Positions 1 to 15,755 of a DNA stretch of 24,638 bases are shown one piece after another. Numbering within the stretch: position 1 is the stretch's first letter; each line of letters begins with the position of its first letter. Both the position numbers and the translations under genes were made by a program. The stretch covers positions 1 to 24,638 of IMG/VR virus record IMGVR_UViG_3300037193_003130; one strand, 5' to 3'. The stretch comes from a virus. The notes beneath the pieces are model-generated. The model was given only the letters and a program-made list of their open reading frames with translations. It ran no database searches and had not been told where the DNA came from.

Positions 1-3
1 CCC

Positions 4-1785
4 ATGTCTAGCCCCAACGGTCACGGCAACGCCATTGCCCTCGTCGACGTCGGCTGCCTCTTCAAGCGCAACTTCGAAGCCAACCCCAACGCCGGCGCAG
101 AGAACGCTCTGAAGGAGATCATCCGCGTCGAGGAGCGCGTCGCCCACGTCGTGCTCTGCCTCGATGCTCCACCCTACAAGAGGGCGGAGCTCTTCCCCGC
201 CTACAAGGCGAATCGCACCGAGCCCGAGACGACCGAGGTCTACCAGAAGCGCTTGCTCTACACGCGGCTCAAGGAGCGCGGCTACCCGATGGCTCGCGTC
301 GAGGGCGCCGAGGGCGACGATGTCGTCGCAACCCTCGCGCGCATCTACGGCGAGAGCTGGCCCGAGGTGTGGCTCGTCGGGGCCGACAAGGACCTCGCCC
401 AGTGCGTGACCGACAACGTGCTGCAGCTCGTCCCGAAGCACGGCGAGCGCGCCGAGCACTTCCGGGGCCCCGACGAGGTGAAGGAAAAGTGGGAGGTCAC
501 CCCCGAGCAGATACCGCTCTTCCTCGCGCTCTGGGGCGACAAGGGCGACAACGTGCCAGGCGTGCCGGGCGTCGGCCCCGTCAAGGCGGCCGGGCTCATC
601 GGCGAGTACAAGACGCTCACCGGCATCGCCGAGCACCTCGCCACCGGCTCGGGCAAGGTGTGGGAATCCCTGCGCGCCAACTGGGAGCAGCTCGTGCTGT
701 CGCTCAAGCTCACGACCCTCGACAGCCACCTGCCCATCGATGCCCAGGCGCTGCTCACTCGCGGCGCGCCCGCGGCGCCGCCCCAGGGCGAGCCCGAGTT
801 CGTGGGCAACGCGACGCCCATGCCGGAGGCGGACCTCCCGGAGAAACTTCACGGCGAACTGTTCAAGAGCGCGCTCGCCGAGGCGCACAGAGCGGAGCCC
901 ATCATCGGCACCGACCCGCGCGCCGTCGAGTTCATGCGCCAGGAGCATGAGGCCCGCCTCGAGCGAGAGCGCAACGCCGACCGCGCCGCGCGCGAGCAGC
1001 AGGAGCAGGAGCACGAGCGTGAGAGCGAGCGCGCCCGCCAGCCGCGCAAGGCGGCGCCCGAGTTCGACAGCGAGCACCCCGACTTCCCCACGTGGGGCTC
1101 GCCCGGGTTCGCGCCGAAGCAGGGCCCGGGTCCCCTCGAGGCGGCGCGGGTGAAGGAGCGAGAGGCGGCCGCCGTGGCGCCCAAGGTCACCGAGTCGGAG
1201 TTCATTCCCTTTGGGCAGCCCGCTGCTGCGCCGGCGCCCAAGCCCGCCCCCGTCGCGCTCATGCCGCCCGTCAAGGCCAAGCTGAAGGGCCTCGCCCTGC
1301 TGCGCGCTCCGTTCGAGAAGCATCAGATCAGCAAGCTCCCGAAGGGAACAAAGGACCAGAACAACTGCGCGCCGCAGGATAAGCGCAGCTGCAACGTGTG
1401 CGGCGGCTGGCACCACCCGAAGATCATTCACCTCGATTACGTCGGCCACGCCGCGCTCACCGACAGGCTGCTCGAGGCAGACCCCGAGTGGACGTGGGAG
1501 CCGATGGCCGTCGACCCCAAGGGCCTGCCGCTGTTCGACGCCAGCGGCGGGCTCTGGATCAAGCTGACGGTCTGCGGCGTGACGCGGCTCGGCTACGGCA
1601 ACGCGAAGGTCAAGAAGGTGCAGGACGAGGACCCGGGCGCGCGCGAGAAGGAGATCATCGGGGACGCCCTGCGCAACGCGGCGATGCGGTTCGGCGCGGC
1701 GCTCGACCTCTGGCACAAGGGCGACGACCTGCATGCCGAAGACTGGGACGCGGATGAGGCCTGGCAGGCACTGGGGGGCGCGTGA
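4..1785 (+). CDS. FEN-type 5'-3' nuclease fused to phage single-strand annealing (Rad52/Sak-like) domain
   Basis: The N-terminal ~250 residues carry the full acidic set of the PolI/T5 D15 flap-endonuclease family: D15 in the LVDVG strand, D54, the YKANR arch around residues 67-71, EGAEGDD at 100-106, GADKD at 126-130, GDKGDN at 178-183, then a helix-hairpin-helix GVPGVGPVKAAG. Such enzymes digest 5' ends or flaps using two metals. Residues ~270-420 are a low-complexity Glu/Arg-rich, then Ala/Pro-rich linker with a likely coiled coil near 312-350. From ~420 a second domain begins: LRAPFEKHQISKLPK, a probable zinc site (C455, C463, C466, H470/H471), DYVGHAALTDRLLE, LWIKLTVCGVTRLGYG and IGDALRNAAMRFGAALDLW. 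I recognise these as the phage annealing-type family seen in actinophages. The protein would couple resection to annealing, as lambda Exo and Beta do as separate proteins. Only three bases precede the ATG, so a more upstream start cannot be excluded. Nuclease call is firm; annealing role is by family resemblance. Confidence 0.85.
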   Translation: MSSPNGHGNAIALVDVGCLFKRNFEANPNAGAENALKEIIRVEERVAHVVLCLDAPPYKRAELFPAYKANRTEPETTEVYQKRLLYTRLKERGYPMARVEGAEGDDVVATLARIYGESWPEVWLVGADKDLAQCVTDNVLQLVPKHGERAEHFRGPDEVKEKWEVTPEQIPLFLALWGDKGDNVPGVPGVGPVKAAGLIGEYKTLTGIAEHLATGSGKVWESLRANWEQLVLSLKLTTLDSHLPIDAQALLTRGAPAAPPQGEPEFVGNATPMPEADLPEKLHGELFKSALAEAHRAEPIIGTDPRAVEFMRQEHEARLERERNADRAAREQQEQEHERESERARQPRKAAPEFDSEHPDFPTWGSPGFAPKQGPGPLEAARVKEREAAAVAPKVTESEFIPFGQPAAAPAPKPAPVALMPPVKAKLKGLALLRAPFEKHQISKLPKGTKDQNNCAPQDKRSCNVCGGWHHPKIIHLDYVGHAALTDRLLEADPEWTWEPMAVDPKGLPLFDASGGLWIKLTVCGVTRLGYGNAKVKKVQDEDPGAREKEIIGDALRNAAMRFGAALDLWHKGDDLHAEDWDADEAWQALGGA

Positions 1786-1994
1786 AGGTCACGAAGGAGG
1801 AGAAGCTCGTCGGGTCCCTCTCGACAGAGGACCTGATACGAGCCATCGAGCGGGAGGGGCTCGTCATCCCCAAGGGGGCGAGCATCGGGCTCTTCATCAC
1901 GGTCGATGGCCCCCACGGCGGGGTCGAGCGCATCCACGTCGGCTATGGCGTCGCCTTCGAGATCATTCTCCCCCATGCCCAGAAGCAAGGCTGA
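1782..1994 (+). CDS. small hypothetical protein in the recombination operon
   Basis: 70 residues starting at a GTG that overlaps the TGA of the nuclease-annealing gene (GTGA), which implies translational coupling. The N-terminal half is charged and helical (KVTKEEKLVGSLSTEDLIRAIERE). The C-terminal half looks like beta-strands (GLFITVDGPHGGVERIHVGYGVAFEIIL). I do not recognise the family. Its last 20 bases overlap the next gene. The alternating charged/hydrophobic pattern and coupling support a real gene; position suggests an accessory factor of the neighbouring nucleases, but that is inference. Confidence 0.6.
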   Translation: MKVTKEEKLVGSLSTEDLIRAIEREGLVIPKGASIGLFITVDGPHGGVERIHVGYGVAFEIILPHAQKQG

Positions 1995-5234: not shown

Positions 5235-5858
5235 AAGCGCCGTGAGCACCGACTCGACGACGTGCCCGGCGCGCAGGCGCGGGTCGCACCAGAGTTCGGT
5301 GCCGCTCTCGCGCAGCCGCACGCAGAGCGAGCCGTCGTCGGCGTAGTAGGTCGCCGGCTTGCTGCCGAACGGGGGCCGCACGAACGGCACGCAGAACGGG
5401 CGCCAGCGCAGGCCGTCTTCTTCCTCGATGGTCGGCAGCTCCGACCCGAGCCGCTCGAGGCTGTCGCGGTGGATGGCGCAGAGCCCGAGCCCGCCCGTCA
5501 GGAGCTCGAAACTCCGTCCCTCCCGGATGGCGAGGTCAGCCTCGACGGGGTCCTTCGGGTTGACGCTCCAGCGGTCGCCCTCGCGCAGGGGGTACATGCC
5601 CCACACCGCGCAATCGGGCGTGACCCCCTCGGCGTCGGCGAGCGCTTGGAGCACGCCGAGTGTCGGCACCGTGTCGGCATCGATAAGGAGGATGCGCTCG
5701 GCTTCCGTGCGGAGCGCTTGCTCGATGAGCACCGAGCGCACGCGCGGCAGGTCGCTGTGGCCCTGGAGCACCAGCGACGGAATGCCCGAGGCGTTGATGA
5801 CGCGCCAGAGTCGGCGGTCGATTTCTCGGTAGGCGGGTGTGATGATGGCGGCTTTCAC
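5226..5858 (-). CDS. GT-A fold (GT2-like) glycosyltransferase
   Basis: 210 residues from a GTG that overlaps the tail-fibre stop (GTGA). The N-terminal nucleotide-sugar fold is visible: AAIITPAYREID (3-14), then RILLIDADTVP with the DxD metal/nucleotide motif D60-A61-D62. The acceptor half contains ELLTGGLGLCAIHR (118-131) and YYADDGSLCVRLRESG (171-186), followed by RLRAGH (194-199) with a possible catalytic or metal His. This is the layout of phage and bacterial GT2-type enzymes. Being coupled to the fibre gene, it may glycosylate the fibre or another virion protein. Modification of host surface sugars or DNA is less well supported. Confidence 0.75.
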   Translation of the reverse strand: MKAAIITPAYREIDRRLWRVINASGIPSLVLQGHSDLPRVRSVLIEQALRTEAERILLIDADTVPTLGVLQALADAEGVTPDCAVWGMYPLREGDRWSVNPKDPVEADLAIREGRSFELLTGGLGLCAIHRDSLERLGSELPTIEEEDGLRWRPFCVPFVRPPFGSKPATYYADDGSLCVRLRESGTELWCDPRLRAGHVVESVLTALRG

Positions 5859-8800
5859 AGGTCAACCTCGTCTCGGCAGAGCAGGCGCCACCGATCGCTC
5901 GTGCCGTCGTACCACGCCAGGGCCATCTCGCCGGGCTTGATGTGGCGGTCGGTGCCGAGCCCGGCGAAGGTATTGGCCGCCGTGCTGCTCGGGCTGTTCA
6001 GCTGGATCACGACGTCATCGGTCGCATGCGCGTTGACGAGCAGGACCGTCTGTCCGTCCACGACGGGGACCATGCCCGTTAGCGGGTTAACGGGCCCCGT
6101 GAACCGCACCACGCTCACGCTATTGATCGCGAGATTGTTGGCCGCCGTGGTCGCCGTCGTCCCGACGCTGTCGAGAGCAACCGAGCTCGCGAGGCGCGTC
6201 GGGCTCGTGATCTGAACCTGGGTCGTCGCGGCGAGCGTCATCGTCCCACCGCTGGCGGTGAGCGTGATGTCCGCGCCGGCCGTGACCGTGTGGTTCGTTC
6301 CGTTGAACGTGTGTGAGCCCGTCCAGGTAATGGGCTCCCCATCGATGATGGCCGCGACTTGCGTACTGGTGAGCGCCGTGGGGACGCCCGTGCCTGCGCT
6401 CTCAGCGCGGCCGATGATGGTCGACTGCGCGAGGTTCGCCATCTTGGCGAGCGTCACGGCCGCGTCCGTGATGCCGGCCGTCGCGACGGTGCCGAACCCG
6501 AGCGTCGTGCCGCTCCTGCGCAGCACCTCGCCATCGTTTGCGGCCGCAATATCCGCTGGATCGCCCGTGCTGTTGGCGCTTCTGCCGATGACGCTGAGCG
6601 CGGCGCTGTTGCGCAGCTTGCCGTTCGTGACCGCGTCGTCGTTGATGCCGCCCGTCGCGATCTGCCCGAACGAGAGCGTCGAGCCGCTCTCACGCAGCAC
6701 GGCGTCGCTCGCTGCGGTAGCCGAGATGTCCGCGACGTTGCCGATTGTGTTGTTCGTGCGCCCAACCACGCTGAGCGCGGCGCTCTGCCGGAGGTCGGCG
6801 TTCGCGATCGTGTTGTCGAGAATGTTGTTGGTCGTGACGAGCCCGAACGAGAGCGTGCCGGCGCTCTCGACGAGGACGCCGTTGCTGCCGCTCGTGGTCG
6901 CGATGTCCGACGGGTCGCCCGTGCTGTTTACGCTACGGCCGATGACCGAGAGGGCGGAGCTGTTGCGGAGCTTTGCGTCAGTGACGACGTCGTTGTCGAT
7001 CGTCCAAGTCGCGCCGCTCGCGCTGACGGTGATGTCGCCCTTGTCACCATCGGTGAGGCTGAACCCTGCGAACGAGCGCCCGACGAGGCGCCAGTCTCCG
7101 TTAGTCGCGTCCCAACGGAAGAGCGCGCTCTCCCGGAACCCGAGCGAGACGTTGATGGCTTGCGGCGTCCGAAAGCGGTTGGCAGTGAGCGAGCCCGCGT
7201 CGAGGCTCGCGAGAATGATGGTGTTGCCCGAGCCGGCAACGTTTTCAACGAGCACGAGCCGGCCGCTCGTGCCTCCCGTCATACCCGTCACCGTCTGACT
7301 GCCGGTCGGCGTCAGACGCAGGACGGTCGTGTCATCGTTCAACGTCTGATCGTTGACGGTGCCGGAGACCGCCACGCTCTGCGCGGTCGACAGCCGCAAG
7401 AGCTCTCCCACCTCGGCGCCCGTGAGCGCGACCGGGGCTCCAGTGCCGGCGTCGATCTGCCGCCCGATGACGGTGCCAGCCGCGAGGTTGGCCATCTTCG
7501 CGAGCGTCACGGCCGCGTCGGCAATACCCGCAGTAGCCACCGTGCCGAAGCCGAGCACGCTGCCGCTCTCGCGCAAGACGGCGCCGCTCGCTGCGCTGGC
7601 GGCAATGTCGGCGACGTTGCCCGTGCTGTTGGCGCTCCTGCCGATGACCGAAAGCGCTCCTCCCTGGCGCAGCTTGGCATCGGTTACCGCGTTGTTGGCG
7701 ATGCCGCCCGTCGCGATGGTGCCAAAGCCGAGGACTGAGCCGCTCTCGCGCAGCACGGCGTCGCTCGCTGCGGTAGCCGAGATGTCGGCAGGGTCGCCGC
7801 TCGAATTGGCGCTCCTGCCGATGACCGAGAGCGCTCCGGAATTGCGGAGCTTCGCGTCGCTGACGACGTCGTTGTCGATCGTCCAGGTCGCGCCAGCGCT
7901 CGACACCGTGACGTCGCCGTAGTCCCCGTCAGCAATCGCGGTCGCGCGCGACGCCGCCACGACGCGCCAGTCGTTGTTGTTCGTCTCCCAGCGGAGCAGA
8001 GCGCTCTCGCGGAACTTGAGCACCAGGTCGACCCCGTTGGGGGTGCGGATGCGGTTGGCCACCGCGCTGCTCGCCGAAAGGCTCGCGAGCGTCAGGTTGT
8101 TGCCCGAGCCCGAGATATTCTCCACGAACAGGAGCCGCCCCTGTGCACCTCCAGTGATACCCGTCAGCGTCTGACTGCCAGTGAGCGTGAGGCGCAGGAC
8201 GGTCGTGTCTGCGTTGAGCGATTGGTCGTTCGTCGTCGCCGCCAGCGTGACGGCCTGCGTCGTGCCGTAGCGCAAGAGCTCGGCCAGCTCGAGCCCCGTC
8301 AAGTCGACGGGAGGGCCCGTCGTCGCGTCGATCTGCCGCCCGTGCACGGTGCCCGCCGCCATGTCGGCGCGCTTCGCGTTGGCAATCGTCCCGTCGGTGA
8401 TCTGCGCGTTGACGAGCTGCGCCGAGACGATGTCGCCGGCAACCCGCCCGAGCACCGTGTTCGTGCCAATGGCGAAGTCTGTGGGGTTTGCCGTCGCCGA
8501 TGTCGCGTTCGCCTTGACCGTGTTCGCGGCCATCTCGGCGAGCTTGGCGTTCGTCACCGAGTCATCGGCGAGCCCGTCGGTGGCGATGGTCCCGAAGCCG
8601 AGGGTCGAGCCGCTCTCGCGCAAGACGCCGCCCGAGCCGGCGACCGCGCTGATGTCCGCCGGATCGCCCGAGCTGTTGGCGGCGCGCCCGATGACGCTGA
8701 GCGGCCCCGAGTCGCGGAGCATCGTGTCGAGCACCACGTTCACCTGAATCGCCGCGGTGTTGCTGAACTGCGGGATCGAGACGTCGCCGGTGATGGCCTC

Positions 8801-9784
8801 GCGGTGAACGGTTCCGTCGGTGTGAACGAAGGTCGTATTGCCCGTCTTGACGAAAAAGACCTGATCGGTGGGGTCCCATTCGACGCCACGCGACCCGTCT
8901 GCCACGAAGTAGAAATCCACGCCCACCGGGCTAACGAGGTCGGTGCCGGTGACGTTGGCGAGGAAGCGGTTATTGAGCAGCCGGGGCAGGTCGTTCAGCG
9001 TGAGGACGCCCCAGCCGATGATGCTTGGCGCCACCGACGCGGGGTCAGCCGGAAACCCCGTCGTGTTCGTGCGCAAGAAGCGCCCGCCCGTCGTGACCGG
9101 CATCGTGATCGCTGCCGGCGGCGCCGTGGCCGTCGTAGAAGTGCCGAGCACCGATAGCCCAGCAATCGGCGTGAGACTCGTGGAAGGGACCGTCGTGCCC
9201 GTGCTCGCCACCCCCGGGATGAACGAGACGACGAGGCCGCCGCCATCGACGAACGGGTCGTCGTGGCTGCTCTCGATGACCGTCACGCCCAGGTCCCAAT
9301 AGGTGCCCTGGTCGGTCATCGTGTTCAGGTCGAAGCGAATGAAGCGCGCCGGGTTGATCGCGTCAGAGAGCGTCACGACCCCGAGCGGCGTCGTCGCCCC
9401 TCCCGCCATCACCTCGAGCCAGGGCCGCGCGTCGACCAGGCGCGCGTTCGTCTCGCTCACCCGCATCACGGTCGCCGTGTTTTGCGGCGACGCATCGAGG
9501 CGGATGCGCCCCGCCGTCGGATCGGCGGCGCCCGTCTCGGTCGAGAAGTAGTAGATGAGCGGGTTCGCGCTCGGGGCGTTGTCGACCGTCGGCAGGTAGA
9601 CGTCGTTCACCCGGTCGCGTGTGCTCTTGACCGCGGGGTAGAGCTCGCGGTTGATGTAGTCGAGCAGGTTCTCCAGCGTCGGCCTGCCGCTGAAGGGGCG
9701 CACCGCGCGCACGACGCCCGTGCGGCCTTGCTGATAGCCAGCCTGGCGCTGGGCCTCGGTCAGCTGCCGGTCGTCACACGCCAT
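5855..9784 (-). CDS. large repeat-built tail fibre / receptor-binding protein
   Basis: 1309 residues. Residues 1-~350 form a unique N-terminal part likely to dock on the tail (includes TLENLLDYINRELYPAVKST and beta-rich segments). From ~361 to ~1120 the protein consists of repeats centred on ALSVIGRSANSTGDPADI, followed by VLRESGSTLGFGTIAT and a short D/N-rich turn ending DAKLRNS. This pattern is common in phage fibres. Three unit-to-unit distances are exactly 59 residues, and two longer inserts of ~173 residues are homologous to each other. The last ~180 residues are non-repetitive and end with HIKPGEMALAWYDG-type strands, probably the trimeric receptor-binding tip. No intramolecular chaperone is evident. 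Its ATG shares one base with the previous stop (TGATG). Confidence 0.8.
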   Translation of the reverse strand: MACDDRQLTEAQRQAGYQQGRTGVVRAVRPFSGRPTLENLLDYINRELYPAVKSTRDRVNDVYLPTVDNAPSANPLIYYFSTETGAADPTAGRIRLDASPQNTATVMRVSETNARLVDARPWLEVMAGGATTPLGVVTLSDAINPARFIRFDLNTMTDQGTYWDLGVTVIESSHDDPFVDGGGLVVSFIPGVASTGTTVPSTSLTPIAGLSVLGTSTTATAPPAAITMPVTTGGRFLRTNTTGFPADPASVAPSIIGWGVLTLNDLPRLLNNRFLANVTGTDLVSPVGVDFYFVADGSRGVEWDPTDQVFFVKTGNTTFVHTDGTVHREAITGDVSIPQFSNTAAIQVNVVLDTMLRDSGPLSVIGRAANSSGDPADISAVAGSGGVLRESGSTLGFGTIATDGLADDSVTNAKLAEMAANTVKANATSATANPTDFAIGTNTVLGRVAGDIVSAQLVNAQITDGTIANAKRADMAAGTVHGRQIDATTGPPVDLTGLELAELLRYGTTQAVTLAATTNDQSLNADTTVLRLTLTGSQTLTGITGGAQGRLLFVENISGSGNNLTLASLSASSAVANRIRTPNGVDLVLKFRESALLRWETNNNDWRVVAASRATAIADGDYGDVTVSSAGATWTIDNDVVSDAKLRNSGALSVIGRSANSSGDPADISATAASDAVLRESGSVLGFGTIATGGIANNAVTDAKLRQGGALSVIGRSANSTGNVADIAASAASGAVLRESGSVLGFGTVATAGIADAAVTLAKMANLAAGTVIGRQIDAGTGAPVALTGAEVGELLRLSTAQSVAVSGTVNDQTLNDDTTVLRLTPTGSQTVTGMTGGTSGRLVLVENVAGSGNTIILASLDAGSLTANRFRTPQAINVSLGFRESALFRWDATNGDWRLVGRSFAGFSLTDGDKGDITVSASGATWTIDNDVVTDAKLRNSSALSVIGRSVNSTGDPSDIATTSGSNGVLVESAGTLSFGLVTTNNILDNTIANADLRQSAALSVVGRTNNTIGNVADISATAASDAVLRESGSTLSFGQIATGGINDDAVTNGKLRNSAALSVIGRSANSTGDPADIAAANDGEVLRRSGTTLGFGTVATAGITDAAVTLAKMANLAQSTIIGRAESAGTGVPTALTSTQVAAIIDGEPITWTGSHTFNGTNHTVTAGADITLTASGGTMTLAATTQVQITSPTRLASSVALDSVGTTATTAANNLAINSVSVVRFTGPVNPLTGMVPVVDGQTVLLVNAHATDDVVIQLNSPSSTAANTFAGLGTDRHIKPGEMALAWYDGTSDRWRLLCRDEVDL
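6956..7477 (-). repeat. long fibre module, copy 2
   Basis: 174-residue segment from GTVIGRQIDAGTG to VVTDAKLRNSS. It shares order and most residues with the segment at 7835-8353: NDQTLN, TTVLRLT, GSQTVTG, LVENVAGSGN, FRESALFRW, NGDWR, GDKGDITVS, ATWTIDNDVV. It reads as a duplicated domain inserted between 59-residue units. Confidence 0.75.
7835..8353 (-). repeat. long fibre module, copy 1
   Basis: 173-residue segment from GTVHGRQIDATTG to VVSDAKLRNSG, the partner of 6956-7477. Both contain FRESALxRW and NxDWR, motifs often seen in fibre beta-domains, and both are directly followed by an ALSVIGR unit. Confidence 0.75.
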
Positions 9785-10995: not shown

Positions 10996-13659
10996 TCAGT
11001 CGTCGCGGTGCTTCTCGGTGGCGCGCCGCTCGCGCTCCTTGCGTTCCTTCTCGCGCTCGGCGTCCTTCTTCTTCTGGAGCTTCGAGCGCCGCTCGTCGTA
11101 GGCGGGCTTCTTGCGCTCGACCTCCGCCGACCGAGCCTTCTCGTCTTCGATCTGCCCCATCAGCGCCATGCGCGACATCTGTCCGCCCGTCACGGCCCCG
11201 CCCGGTTCGAGCGATCGGAGGATGGGGAAGGCACGGATCTTCGCAGCGTCTGCCACGCTGTGAATGCCGACGCCGCGAGGAGAGCCCTTGGGGCTTCTAA
11301 ACCAGGCCTGCCGCTGGATGTCGCGCGCGTCTTGGAAGCCGCGCAGCCGGTCGAGATCGCCGCGCACCCCAGCCTCGTCGGCGAGCCCGCTAATGACGTC
11401 GGCTTCTTGCTTGCCGCCCGCCTGGGGCCGGTTGCCCTGGAGCGCGACGGCGCGGAAGGCGTCGCCCTTGGGCGCGATCGACTCCTCGACCTTCTTCGCC
11501 TTGCCGATCTCCTCGGCGTGCCGCTCGTGCATCTTCGAGTAGCCGCCGCGCTCGCCCCCGTGGATGCGCTGCGCCCGGTCGTGCTTGGCGGCGGCCAGGA
11601 GCTTAGGATCGGTCAGGCCATCGATGATCTCGTCCATGCGTGTCGCGTCGGCCCCGTGCGGCGCCGCGTACACCGCGGCGATGCCGCGTTGCTTCAGGTA
11701 GCCGGCAAACGAGCCATCGAACGGCTCGAGCACCATGTCCTCGTCGACCCGCTCGCGCAGCACCTGCTGCTCGGCGTCCTTGTACGCAGCTCGGCGCTGG
11801 TCGGCGTCGAGCGCCCGATCGCCCCCCTTCTGTTGAAGCAGGTCGTCGATGCTGGCCTGGATCTCTTCGTCAACCAGCGCCCGCTTCTTCGGGTCGACCG
11901 TCTGCAGGTACGCCTTGCGGTCCTCGGGGGTGGCGCGGCGCCTCGCGGCCGCTGCCTCGATATCATCGGCGAGCAGCTTCCGGCGCAGCGAGGCGGGCAG
12001 GAACGCCCCCGCCTCGTCGGGCGTGAGCTTCGCGGCGCCCTCGATGGGCTCGAGCGAAACGTCTTTCGTGATCCGGTTGAACACCTTCTGCGCGTCGCGA
12101 TGCGTATCGCTCAGCGGGGCCAGCCCGCCCTCGGAAAGGGGCTGGTGCCCGCGACGTACCTTGTCGAGAGCCGCCGTGTGGAGCCCCGTGAGCGGCAGCA
12201 TCTCGCTGCCGAGCTCGCTCGATTGGGCATTGGCGCGCTCGGCCTCCTGCACCCCCTCCGCCTTGCGCGTCCGCGCCTCGGCCGCCTTGCGGATGGGCGG
12301 CGCGATCTGCTCGGCGATGAAGTCGCCGGGCTCGGTGCGTGTCTTGTTTCCGAGACGGACGAGGTCCTTGGCGTCCCCGCTCAAGCTTGGCCCGAGCAAC
12401 GGCGAGAGCGGGCCGTAGCGGAGGTTGCTCTCGGTGCGCCCGATCGCGCCCCCGAGGCTGTCGGCATTGCGGATGGCATCCGCCCCCGCCCCCGCCAGGC
12501 GCCCGAGCGTGCCGCCGCCGAGGCCCCAGAGCGCGGCGCTCTGCCCCGTGTCCATGATGCGCTCACCCGGCCCGAGCACGGGCTCTCGCCCGGGGGTCGC
12601 CATGTCGACCGCCTCCTGCCCTGCCTGGGTCGCCACGGCCTCCGCCGTGCCCGCCCCGACCTCGCCAGCGAGCGCAGCCGCGCCCTTCACGGCGTTGGGC
12701 GCCTTCGCCGCCATCGCCCCGAACCGCGTCTTGGCGACGAGCTGGGCGAGCTTGCTGCCGCCGGCGAGGATGCCCTGGTAGACCGCCGTGGGGGCCCCGC
12801 CGAGCGCGCCCACCGCCTGCCCCGCGCCATAGGCGAGCGGGTGCTCCTCGATGAGCGACTGGTTGAGGAATGCCGGGTCCTGCTTGGCTTCCTCGTTCAG
12901 CCCCATCACGTCCACGTTGCCCGCGACGTTCATCTTCCGATCGCCGAGCGCCTCGTCGAACGCGCGCGACGCCCCGAGCGTGCCCACGTCGTCGGCGCCG
13001 AGAATGATCGCCTGCCCGACGTCGCGGATGGGCTGCATCATCCCGCCGAGCTTGAGCCCGAGCGCGCCCAGGCCCCCCGCCGTGTCGTTCTCCTTGCCCC
13101 ATGGCATCTTGGAGTAGCGGTAGACCGTGTAGCCCTTCTGCCCGGCAGCCTCCGCCGTTCGCGCCCACATGTAGTTGGCGGCGTCCTGATAGAGCGGGCT
13201 GTCCGCATCCATCGCGGCGATCTCTTCGGCGCTCGGCGGGTCCGATCGCAGGAGCCCCAGCATGTTGGGGTTTTCGAGCAGCTGCTTCTTGACGAGCGCG
13301 ACGGGCGGCTCGTAGGCGAACTTCACGTCGCCCGCCGCGCCTGCCTTGTAGCTCGCGATGGCGGCCTCGTCCCCCTGCGGGCTGTTCGTCGCGGGCAAGA
13401 GCGCGAGCCCCTGCGGGATGAGGTCGAAGCGCGGGTCGAGCGCGGAAGCGATGCGGCCGACCTCCGACTCCTCGTGCGCGGGGTCAGCCTGGGGCGGGTT
13501 GATGACGCCCGTCACGCCAAGCGAGTTCTCTGGTGCCGGCGTGACGCTGCCGCCGCGCCCCGCGAGCGCCGCCTTCGCCTGCGCCGCGACCGCCGGATCG
13601 AGCTCGCCCGAAGCGAGCGCCGCCTCGAGCTCCGCGTAGTCTTCGTCGGAGAGAGCCAT
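10996..13659 (-). CDS. large internal virion (ejection) protein candidate
   Basis: 887 residues, mostly predicted helix, Ala/Gly/Glu-rich. Residues ~285-370 are Ala/Gly-rich and weakly hydrophobic (ALGGAPTAVYQGILAGGSKL, then AVKGAAALAGEVGAGTAEAV), suited to membrane interaction. The C-terminal ~45 residues are extremely charged and basic (KLQKKKDAEREKERKERERR), likely DNA- or RNA-binding coiled coil. No enzymatic motif seen. Its length, position after an SLT-domain protein and before the fibre genes, and composition match the podovirus proteins that are ejected to form the DNA conduit (P22 gp16/gp20/gp7, T7 gp15/gp16). The role is assigned by synteny. The ATG overlaps the upstream stop (TGATG). 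Confidence 0.65.
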   Translation of the reverse strand: MALSDEDYAELEAALASGELDPAVAAQAKAALAGRGGSVTPAPENSLGVTGVINPPQADPAHEESEVGRIASALDPRFDLIPQGLALLPATNSPQGDEAAIASYKAGAAGDVKFAYEPPVALVKKQLLENPNMLGLLRSDPPSAEEIAAMDADSPLYQDAANYMWARTAEAAGQKGYTVYRYSKMPWGKENDTAGGLGALGLKLGGMMQPIRDVGQAIILGADDVGTLGASRAFDEALGDRKMNVAGNVDVMGLNEEAKQDPAFLNQSLIEEHPLAYGAGQAVGALGGAPTAVYQGILAGGSKLAQLVAKTRFGAMAAKAPNAVKGAAALAGEVGAGTAEAVATQAGQEAVDMATPGREPVLGPGERIMDTGQSAALWGLGGGTLGRLAGAGADAIRNADSLGGAIGRTESNLRYGPLSPLLGPSLSGDAKDLVRLGNKTRTEPGDFIAEQIAPPIRKAAEARTRKAEGVQEAERANAQSSELGSEMLPLTGLHTAALDKVRRGHQPLSEGGLAPLSDTHRDAQKVFNRITKDVSLEPIEGAAKLTPDEAGAFLPASLRRKLLADDIEAAAARRRATPEDRKAYLQTVDPKKRALVDEEIQASIDDLLQQKGGDRALDADQRRAAYKDAEQQVLRERVDEDMVLEPFDGSFAGYLKQRGIAAVYAAPHGADATRMDEIIDGLTDPKLLAAAKHDRAQRIHGGERGGYSKMHERHAEEIGKAKKVEESIAPKGDAFRAVALQGNRPQAGGKQEADVISGLADEAGVRGDLDRLRGFQDARDIQRQAWFRSPKGSPRGVGIHSVADAAKIRAFPILRSLEPGGAVTGGQMSRMALMGQIEDEKARSAEVERKKPAYDERRSKLQKKKDAEREKERKERERRATEKHRDD

Positions 13660-15755
13660 CAGCCGCCGCCCTTTCGCAGGATGTCGAGCACCTTCTTGTC
13701 GAGCGGGCTCTTGCCCGCGGGTTCCGCAGTCTTCGCGTCGCCCTTGCCCTTCTGCCCGCCACGCAGCCCGTAGAAACGCAGGATGCTGCCCCTCGTGATG
13801 TCGCCGTCGTCATCGGGGCGCCACGGCTTGTTCGCCTTCCAGCCCGCCGAGCCCTTCGGGTAGACGACCATGTCGTCGCTCGCGCCCTTCGCGCGGAACT
13901 TCTTATCGGAGGCGGCGACCGCCATCGCGTAGTCCTCGGGCGAGCTGTCGGAAGTGAGCCCCTGCGCCTTGAGGAACTGCATCACGGCCGGCAGCTGCTC
14001 GGCTGCCGACAGCTTGCGATACTTCTCGGGGTCGATGCCCATCTTGCGCAGGTTGCTCGGCATGATTTGCAGCACGCCCGACGCCCCTTCCGTGCTCACC
14101 GCTTTCGGATCGCCGCCGCTCTCGGGGCCGATGATGCGCCGAATCTTCTCCGGGTCGAGGTCGCTTTCGAGCGCCTGCCCTTCGAGCTCGAGATCGAAGT
14201 CGCTCATCTCGGCGAGATCGCTGCCGACGGCTTCGGGGTCGTGTTGCCCCCCTCGCGCGCTCTTGCCCTTGTCGCCGCCGGGACCCTCGTCCCGCGCCTT
14301 CTTCATGTCGAGCCAGTCGTTGTAGATCCAGCCCGGCACCGCGGTCTTCGCGTTCGCGAGGTACGCGCGCTTCGTGTGCTCGTTGAAAGCCCCGCCGTTG
14401 GCGCGAGCACTCGACTGTTCGAGGAAGTCGAACGCGGCTTGCTTGAGCTCCTCCTTCTTGGCCTTCATGTAGGCCTTGATGGCGTTGCGCTGCGGCGCTT
14501 GCATGCCGCCTGCAACCATCTGCCGAATCGTGGTCCACGCCTGGTCCATGAGGGACGACAGCGGGATGCCGAACGCCAGCTTTAGATCCGTGTCGCTCGG
14601 CGTACCCTTGACGCCTTGGAACGTCATGAGCTCGCTCGCGATCATCGCGTCGTTGTCGGGGCTCGGGTCGTCGATGACCCGGAGGATGGTGTCGCCCGCG
14701 CGGAAGGCGTCGGCGATCTTGGGCACGCTGTTCGCCGCGGCGAACTTGTCGTTTTCGGCGCGGCCCTGCTCTTCGAGCCCCGCGATGTCCTTCGGGGTGA
14801 GCTCGTCGCGCGTCTCGCGGAAGCGCTCGGCCTGCGCATCGGCAGCAATCTGCGCGTTGCGCTGCGACGCCGGCCCCGAGATGGCCTTGTCGAATGCCGC
14901 CTGCTGCTTTTCGAGCGGCAGCCCGCTCGCTCGCAGTCCGAGACGGATCTGCTCGGCCGCCGCGCTCGTCTGCTCGTCGGGGAAGGCCGCGGCCGCCGCC
15001 TTGAGCGAGGGGTCGAGCCGGTGGAGCGTCGAGGCCGCCATCGCCCCCATGTCGATGACGTTCTTCGGCACCCCGCCCGTGAAGTCCTCTTCGTCGACCA
15101 TCGGCTGGCCCGTGGCGGGGTCGAGCCTCGGCGTCTTCGCGCCGGGCGTCCCGTAGGTGGCCGCGACGCGGCCCGCCACCGTCTGCCCCGTCCCGGGCTC
15201 GACCTCGTCGCTCGAGCGGATGCCGAGCGGTGGCAGGAGCGAGCCCGTCTCGCCGCCGAGCCCCATCGCACCGAGACGGCTGAGCGATTGCTCGGCAGTC
15301 TCGCCCTCGCCGTAGGGCGAGGTCTTCGCGAGCTGCTCGCTCTCCGCCTGCTGCGCGGCCGCCGCGTCCATGCCGACGCGGTAGCGGGGCAGCCCTCCCT
15401 CTTCGCCCTCGAGCTCGATGTCCATGCCGAGCGAGTGCAGCATCGGCACCATCGAGCGCATCGCTTCGATGTTGCCTTCTCCGCTCGCCTTGGTGAACTC
15501 GCCGTACACCTTGAGGCGGTCCTCCTGGAGCTTGGCGGCTTTCGTGGCCTCGACCTCGAGCCGAGCCTTCGCCATCTCGGCGGCCTGCCTCTCGCGAGCG
15601 AGGCGGTCCTCCTCCTCGGCGCGCTTCTTGTCGAACTCGAACTTCTCGCGCGCGAGCTTGAGCTGCTCGCGCGCGTTGCCGGCGCCGGTGGGCGCCAGGT
15701 CCCAGGCCGAGGTCTTGGTTGGCTGAAGGAGCATCTGTGCGAAGTCGATGGCCAT
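13659..15755 (-). CDS. internal virion protein with SLT lytic transglycosylase domain
   Basis: 698 residues. Residues ~25-85 form a charged coiled coil (REQLKLAREKFEFDKKRAEE onward). The middle is helical and unrecognised. Residues ~540-570 carry the SLT signature IIGPESGGDPKAVSTEGASGVLQIMP, with E545 the probable catalytic acid and the G-V-L-Q-I-M-P motif of soluble lytic transglycosylases. The enzyme would cut the glycan strand locally so the ejection conduit can cross the cell wall. In T7 gp16 the SLT domain is N-terminal, whereas here it lies near the C-terminus. A 130-residue tail follows, ending in a basic KKVLDILRKGGG. The domain call is firm; the packaged status is inferred from context. 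Confidence 0.8.
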   Translation of the reverse strand: MAIDFAQMLLQPTKTSAWDLAPTGAGNAREQLKLAREKFEFDKKRAEEEDRLARERQAAEMAKARLEVEATKAAKLQEDRLKVYGEFTKASGEGNIEAMRSMVPMLHSLGMDIELEGEEGGLPRYRVGMDAAAAQQAESEQLAKTSPYGEGETAEQSLSRLGAMGLGGETGSLLPPLGIRSSDEVEPGTGQTVAGRVAATYGTPGAKTPRLDPATGQPMVDEEDFTGGVPKNVIDMGAMAASTLHRLDPSLKAAAAAFPDEQTSAAAEQIRLGLRASGLPLEKQQAAFDKAISGPASQRNAQIAADAQAERFRETRDELTPKDIAGLEEQGRAENDKFAAANSVPKIADAFRAGDTILRVIDDPSPDNDAMIASELMTFQGVKGTPSDTDLKLAFGIPLSSLMDQAWTTIRQMVAGGMQAPQRNAIKAYMKAKKEELKQAAFDFLEQSSARANGGAFNEHTKRAYLANAKTAVPGWIYNDWLDMKKARDEGPGGDKGKSARGGQHDPEAVGSDLAEMSDFDLELEGQALESDLDPEKIRRIIGPESGGDPKAVSTEGASGVLQIMPSNLRKMGIDPEKYRKLSAAEQLPAVMQFLKAQGLTSDSSPEDYAMAVAASDKKFRAKGASDDMVVYPKGSAGWKANKPWRPDDDGDITRGSILRFYGLRGGQKGKGDAKTAEPAGKSPLDKKVLDILRKGGG

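Follow-up and report, generated by a model that had tools for sequence, protein, structure and literature searches.

The 24,638-bp stretch of DNA analysed here (the window, which is the whole of the virus record) begins with a gene whose product combines a FEN-type 5′ nuclease domain and a single-strand annealing domain in one polypeptide. We interpret this protein, with a probability of about 0.6, as a one-chain, two-component phage recombinase that would be enzymatically active, would form oligomers and would resect DNA before annealing it. At the level of sequence, this interpretation draws on the presence of both domains with their conserved sites, the recurrence of the fusion, a common ancestry of the nucleases, a repeated exchange of the annealing domain and the lack of the C-terminal tail that free annealing proteins carry. 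The positions of the features are collected in Table 1.

Table 1. Positions in the window of the fusion gene, its parts and the two genes that follow it
Feature	Positions	Strand	Basis or remark
Fusion gene, 593 aa: FEN 5′ nuclease, linker, annealing domain	4..1785	+	Single open frame, 593 codons
FEN / Pol I-type 5′-3′ nuclease domain, residues 9-262	28..789	+	PF02739 8.2e-21, PF01367 1.7e-21; carboxylates complete
Linker, residues 263-427: disordered around one long helix modelled with confidence (305-345)	790..1284	+	AlphaFold; dN/dS
Motif IIGTDPRAVEFMRQE of the linker, where the helix begins	901..945	+	Common to phrog_3290-fused and RecT-fused relatives
Single-strand annealing domain, residues 428-574	1285..1725	+	phrog_3290; predicted Rad52-superfamily fold
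CxxC-GG-W-HH zinc-site-like motif (C463, C466, H470/H471)	1390..1413	+	Cysteines invariant in 58 homologues; absent in Soul22
Small ORF, 70 aa, overlapping the fusion stop (GTGA)	1782..1994	+	Without family match; context only
DUF559/REase-like gene, 115 aa	1975..2322	+	PF04480 7.9e-05, phrog_503 1.9e-16; context only

Domains and setting of the fusion gene

A first-pass annotation had placed nuclease and annealing domain in one uninterrupted frame, and all 593 codons are indeed open. The ATG, preceded by 3 bases in the record, with any upstream signal lying outside it, matches the start codon of the relatives. In these the DUF559/REase-like gene also lies directly 3′ of the fusion, in phrog_3290 and RecT versions alike, and it could be a functional partner of the fusion. 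A capsid-like match and an endolysin on the minus strand of the window, together with its synteny with a relative of 47.7 kb in which a large terminase is encoded, show that the source is a tailed phage. Two further observations concern the rest of the window. A tail-like protein of 1309 aa (5858-9784, minus strand) is made of the repeat “LRxSxALSVIGRSxNSTGDxADI”, and its homologue in the L009 genome is called at 1528 aa, which indicates that the number of repeats may vary among relatives; moreover, very long antisense ORFs of 578 and 921 aa (1-1734, minus strand, and 11008-13773, plus strand) lie opposite real genes and are most likely an effect of codon bias in DNA of 66-71% GC.

The nuclease domain is matched by PF02739 at residues 31-163 (74.8 bits against a cut-off of 34.3) and by PF01367 at residues 165-248 (77 against 40), and the PDB sequences nearest to it include those of Pol I, ExoIX and T5 FEN. 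The acidic residues named in the first-pass annotation (D15, D54, D105/D106, D128/D130, D179/D182) were correctly identified and E103 has to be added to them; D15, D54, E103, D105, D106, D130, D179 and D182 are invariant in 16 divergent relatives, as are Y67, K129 and the arch Arg/Lys residues R60, K68 and R71, and the two-metal carboxylate set is complete. In the AlphaFold model of the full chain this domain has a pLDDT of about 97, and Foldseek matches the modelled fold to those of E. coli ExoIX (E=1.7e-18, TMt 0.86) and T5 FEN. By Pfam, active site and modelled fold the domain is a FEN/Pol I-type 5′ nuclease, with the corresponding activity predicted.

The C-terminal half of the protein had no match in Pfam, and the annealing domain, searched as a profile, had none among PDB sequences either, its relatives there being found by fold comparison only. 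In PHROGs, however, residues 426-584 hit phrog_3290 (E=8.8e-49), which is annotated as “single strand annealing protein”. The domain is modelled confidently at residues 428-570 of the full chain (pLDDT 84.9 when modelled alone), and its best Foldseek matches in the PDB are human RAD52 (6.1e-4), Sak of phage 80alpha (8.8e-4) and yeast Mgm101, the scores being moderate (E about 1e-3, probability 1.00, TM mostly 0.4-0.56); viral structure models named SAK3 match as well. The predicted fold places the domain in the Rad52 superfamily, with annealing activity predicted. The annealing-type assignment of the C-terminus made from the letters alone is borne out, and each half of the protein falls in the family then proposed for it. 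In sequence, free annealing proteins of Streptomyces phage ZL12 and of the mycobacteriophages Marvin and Soul22 share 52-58% identity with the annealing domain of the fusion. The Cys/His site noted at the outset proved real but not general: C463, C466 and H470 are conserved, the two cysteines being invariant in 58 aligned homologues, whereas the site is absent from the Soul22 annealing protein and is therefore a feature of a subfamily.

Known annealing proteins carry the annealing domain at the N-terminus, within the first ~180 residues (PMC11783212), whereas here it occupies the C-terminal residues 428-574, a difference that concerns architecture and not homology.

The linker is the fastest-evolving portion of the protein and both domains are under purifying selection, as indicated by the dN/dS values between the window and its relative L009 (NG86, rough in GC-rich DNA), which are 0.31 for the FEN domain, 0.22 for the annealing domain and 0.80 for the linker. 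Its pLDDT is below 50 at residues 263-303 and 355-424, on either side of the confident helix, and the full-chain model (pTM 0.50) is devoid of confident contacts between the two domains. Nevertheless, within the near group the motifs GN.TPMPE and GKDP.ADE.LR..A..R, the latter where the long helix begins, occur in the linkers of both phrog_3290- and RecT-fused proteins, so that the motif-bearing part of the linker travels with the nuclease.

Relatives of the fusion and exchange of its annealing partner

The first-pass annotation had regarded recurrence in related phages as the support to be sought for the fusion, and six further IMG/VR contigs (L009, L015, L016, L023, L107 and L189) carry the same combination of FEN and phrog_3290 in an intact frame. 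These are independent contigs from other samples, with 48-77% overall identity; in the case of L009 (IMGVR_UViG_3300027778_000003) the intact fusion has 582 aa and its FEN and annealing domains are 82% and 87% identical to those of the window. L009 was detected with the FEN domain as query, and the other five with alignments. That the fusion is an artefact of assembly or frame, joining neighbouring genes, might be suspected of a metagenomic record in which it begins at the contig edge, and an error near 800-1260 had been named as what would undo it. Six contigs with intact fusions rule out such an error and, along with the dN/dS values of 0.31 and 0.22, which reflect purifying selection on two domains in one frame, indicate that both domains are maintained together; the probability of an artefact is thus negligible.

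As to the L009 contig itself (L012-L014, 47,722 bp), its ends have about 630 bp in common, with differences, so that it probably spans roughly one genome length and has ends that vary; its genes include those for an SSB and for an integrase-like protein.

The partner of the nuclease is not always phrog_3290, the exchange having taken place between annealing families that have no sequence relationship to one another. The FEN of L102, 71% identical to that of the window, is fused to a RecT-family domain (PF03837, phrog_561, phrog_4171), as it is in many others, and that of L120 to an ERF domain (PF04404, 27.3 bits against a cut-off of 25; phrog_155). Among the best 80 loci per scan, distinct fusions number at least 62 with RecT (most of them called with a RecT profile built from eleven such proteins), at least seven with phrog_3290 and at least one with ERF, the nuclease coming first in all; the RecT fusions that were also scanned against Pfam or PHROGs all match RecT families in PHROGs. 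One of the scans was queried with whole fusions, which favours finding fusions, but the scan made with FEN alone still yielded 51 fusion loci among its best 80.

A scan of genome contigs found free annealing proteins only. Six FEN ORFs (L279, L377, L312, L372, L303 and L385) have unexplained C-terminal extensions of about 180-220 aa, which lack a match to the RecT and phrog_3290 profiles as well as to Pfam or PHROG families. Two separate observations may be added: in a phage contig (L123:3848-5245, plus strand) a FEN that does not belong to the fusion clade has a uracil-DNA glycosylase domain (PF03167, 104 bits) as its fusion partner, and one contig stretch contains both the gene for an annealing protein and that for a protein of repeated five-residue units (NTGNW/NTGDR; L002:1-561, minus strand).

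In an IQ-TREE tree of 109 FEN rows, every fused FEN falls in a single clade of 74 rows (support 99/88), and none of the 35 outgroup FENs carries a profiled annealing domain. The clade also holds four unfused FENs. In L017 and L258 a separate gene, for phrog_3290 and for ERF (45.5 bits), respectively, lies upstream of the FEN gene, whereas in L247, a near-copy of the fused L246, a RecT frame lies directly downstream of it; the fourth, L263 (3411-5049, plus strand), has FEN followed by an overlapping frame of phrog_10048, a family of unknown function (1.4e-42). It can be noted that the separation of the FEN and RecT frames in L247 (3264-5109, plus strand) is due to an apparent frameshift relative to the near-identical L246 fusion, and that the association with FEN makes the phrog_10048 protein a possible annealing or partner protein not recognised as such, perhaps belonging to a fusion interrupted by a frameshift.

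Within the clade the phrog_3290 and RecT labels interleave, and the well supported branches require at least three changes for phrog_3290 in the 109-row tree and four in a smaller tree, the exact counts being limited by rooting, long branches and sampling (best 80 loci per scan). A direct view of one such change is offered by L102 (RecT) and L015 (phrog_3290), which are syntenic, with 74% DNA identity from upstream through FEN and most of the linker (L183 3403-5085); the similarity is then absent and returns, at 86%, from position 5962, in the downstream gene. As judged from this alignment, the annealing domain and the start of the following region have been replaced in place. We lean, if only slightly, towards a more general description in which a FEN lineage of environmental phages has become a chassis dedicated to annealing, whose C-terminal module (phrog_3290, RecT or ERF) would have been exchanged in place several times, giving single-chain recombinases for 5′ processing and annealing in which the tether would replace a partner-binding tail.

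Proposed coupling of nuclease and annealing activity

The tail in question is conspicuously short. After the annealing domain only 3-12 aa are left in the seven phrog_3290 fusions, whereas the median for the 105 free phrog_3290 proteins is 85 aa (Mann-Whitney p=1.5e-5, the sequences being treated as if unrelated, with kinship ignored), and the RecT fusions likewise stop within a few residues of the annealing domain. The C-terminal regions of free annealing proteins serve partner proteins (PMC11783212), and in Red-beta the C-terminal domain binds lambda Exo (reference 27 of PMC9870868). These findings are most simply explained if the attached nuclease made the usual C-terminal tail dispensable.

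In the mechanism that we propose, the FEN nuclease would act at 5′ DNA ends, where it would most likely degrade the 5′ strand and expose a 3′ single strand, possibly cutting 5′ flaps too. The annealing domain, tethered by the linker of about 165 residues with its long helix, would bind the exposed strand and pair it with DNA of complementary sequence, a task that lambda Exo and Red-beta accomplish as two proteins; in the fusion, the partner-recruiting C-terminal tail of free annealing proteins would be replaced by the covalent tether. Degradation of the 5′ strand to prepare the 3′ strand is favoured here by analogy with the two-component systems and with T7 gp6/gp2.5, and a coupling of resection to annealing is plausible, although the trimming of 5′ flaps once annealing has taken place would be an equally possible role for the FEN. 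FEN enzymes recognise 5′ flaps in a structure-specific manner and in general prefer flaps, nicks and gaps, so that long resection of blunt ends is not assured.

This preference, together with the match of fold and active site to ExoIX and T5 FEN and the fact that annealing at forks makes 5′ flaps, is what speaks for the reverse order of events, in which the annealing domain would act before the nuclease, bringing single strands together at replication forks or at collapsed ends, after which the FEN would remove displaced 5′ flaps or RNA primers and leave a nick to ligase, so that annealing would be coupled to flap removal. We regard this order as rather unlikely: T7 gp6 and some other FEN-family phage enzymes act as 5′ exonucleases, and flap trimming alone leaves the missing tail unexplained, unless the tail of the free proteins recruits a host flap nuclease. 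It is distinctly less probable still that the two domains are independent enzymes encoded by former neighbour genes and only translated together, with a linker that is cut or so flexible that joining plays no mechanistic role. The unfused neighbours in L017 (annealing gene then FEN) and L258 (ERF then FEN) and the mostly disordered linker are consistent with this possibility; nevertheless, at least 70 fusions, spanning three annealing families, have the identical order and a nuclease of one lineage, and the linker motif is kept across partner types in a fast-evolving region in which a long helix is predicted. Nuclease and annealing protein are, in fact, encoded as a unit both here, in one frame, and in L017 and L258, as adjacent genes, but the gene order in the latter two is opposite to that of the fusion, so that a simple loss of a stop codon is not an obvious origin for it.

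Returning to resection followed by annealing, the question arises whether the FEN takes the place of a lambda-Exo-type nuclease. A YqaJ-type exonuclease (PF09588) was found in 0 of 14 fusion-type contigs, and PF12705 was not above cut-off in any of 15 contigs; however, only two of 30 phages with free phrog_3290 have a YqaJ-type exonuclease, and a FEN was found in none of these 30. Since the free-protein phages mostly lack the YqaJ-type enzyme too, its absence is not evidence that FEN replaces lambda Exo. As a family marker, phrog_97 was dropped, having matches in all control genomes.

Relation to known recombination systems

Like the fusion, lambda Red (lambda Exo and Red-beta) and RecE/RecT of Rac encode a 5′ nuclease and an annealing protein together, and the annealing partner in at least 62 relatives of the window belongs to the RecT family. 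They differ from it in that nuclease and annealing protein are separate chains, with Red-beta using its C-terminal domain to bind lambda Exo, in having a nuclease of the lambda-Exo/YqaJ type or RecE instead of a FEN, and in the N-terminal position of the annealing domain. A further parallel is T7, in which gp6, a FEN-superfamily 5′ exonuclease, works with the annealing-competent gp2.5; these are, however, products of separate genes and gp2.5 is an OB-fold SSB, not a member of the Rad52 superfamily. Among the free phrog_3290 homologues mentioned above, whose fold is related to SAK3 and Rad52, Marvin gp63 and Soul22 gp70 are, unlike the fusion, stand-alone proteins, the Marvin gene following a separate exonuclease gene. 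Finally, the N-terminal 5′ nuclease of Pol I, ExoIX/Xni and T5 FEN have the same Pfam pair, active site and fold as the FEN of the fusion, but the first is fused to a polymerase and the others stand alone, none being joined to an annealing protein.

The first-pass annotation named no described example of a FEN nuclease joined to an annealing protein, and in the open literature searched none was found. Exonuclease and annealing protein are presented as two components in PMC7496540. Furthermore, none of the 50,697 phage genome records of INPHARED covers 80% of any of the four fusions used as query. The best match in BFVD, A0A6J5MUB0, is a UniProt entry of 462 aa named “PIN_53EXO domain” and may be a deposited, unremarked fusion.

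Taken at the level of sequence, where the architecture is well supported, a two-protein recombination machine appears to have been repeatedly packed into one chain, in about 70 environmental phages and with three annealing families. Phage recombinases have been described as two polypeptides, usually with a lambda-Exo-type nuclease, whereas here a widespread lineage has a FEN in the same chain. A comparison of fused and separated domains would allow a direct test of what physical coupling adds to recombination, and the natural swapping of three annealing families behind one nuclease shows which parts are interchangeable. Single-gene nuclease-annealing proteins could also be convenient for genome engineering in bacteria in which two-gene systems perform poorly.
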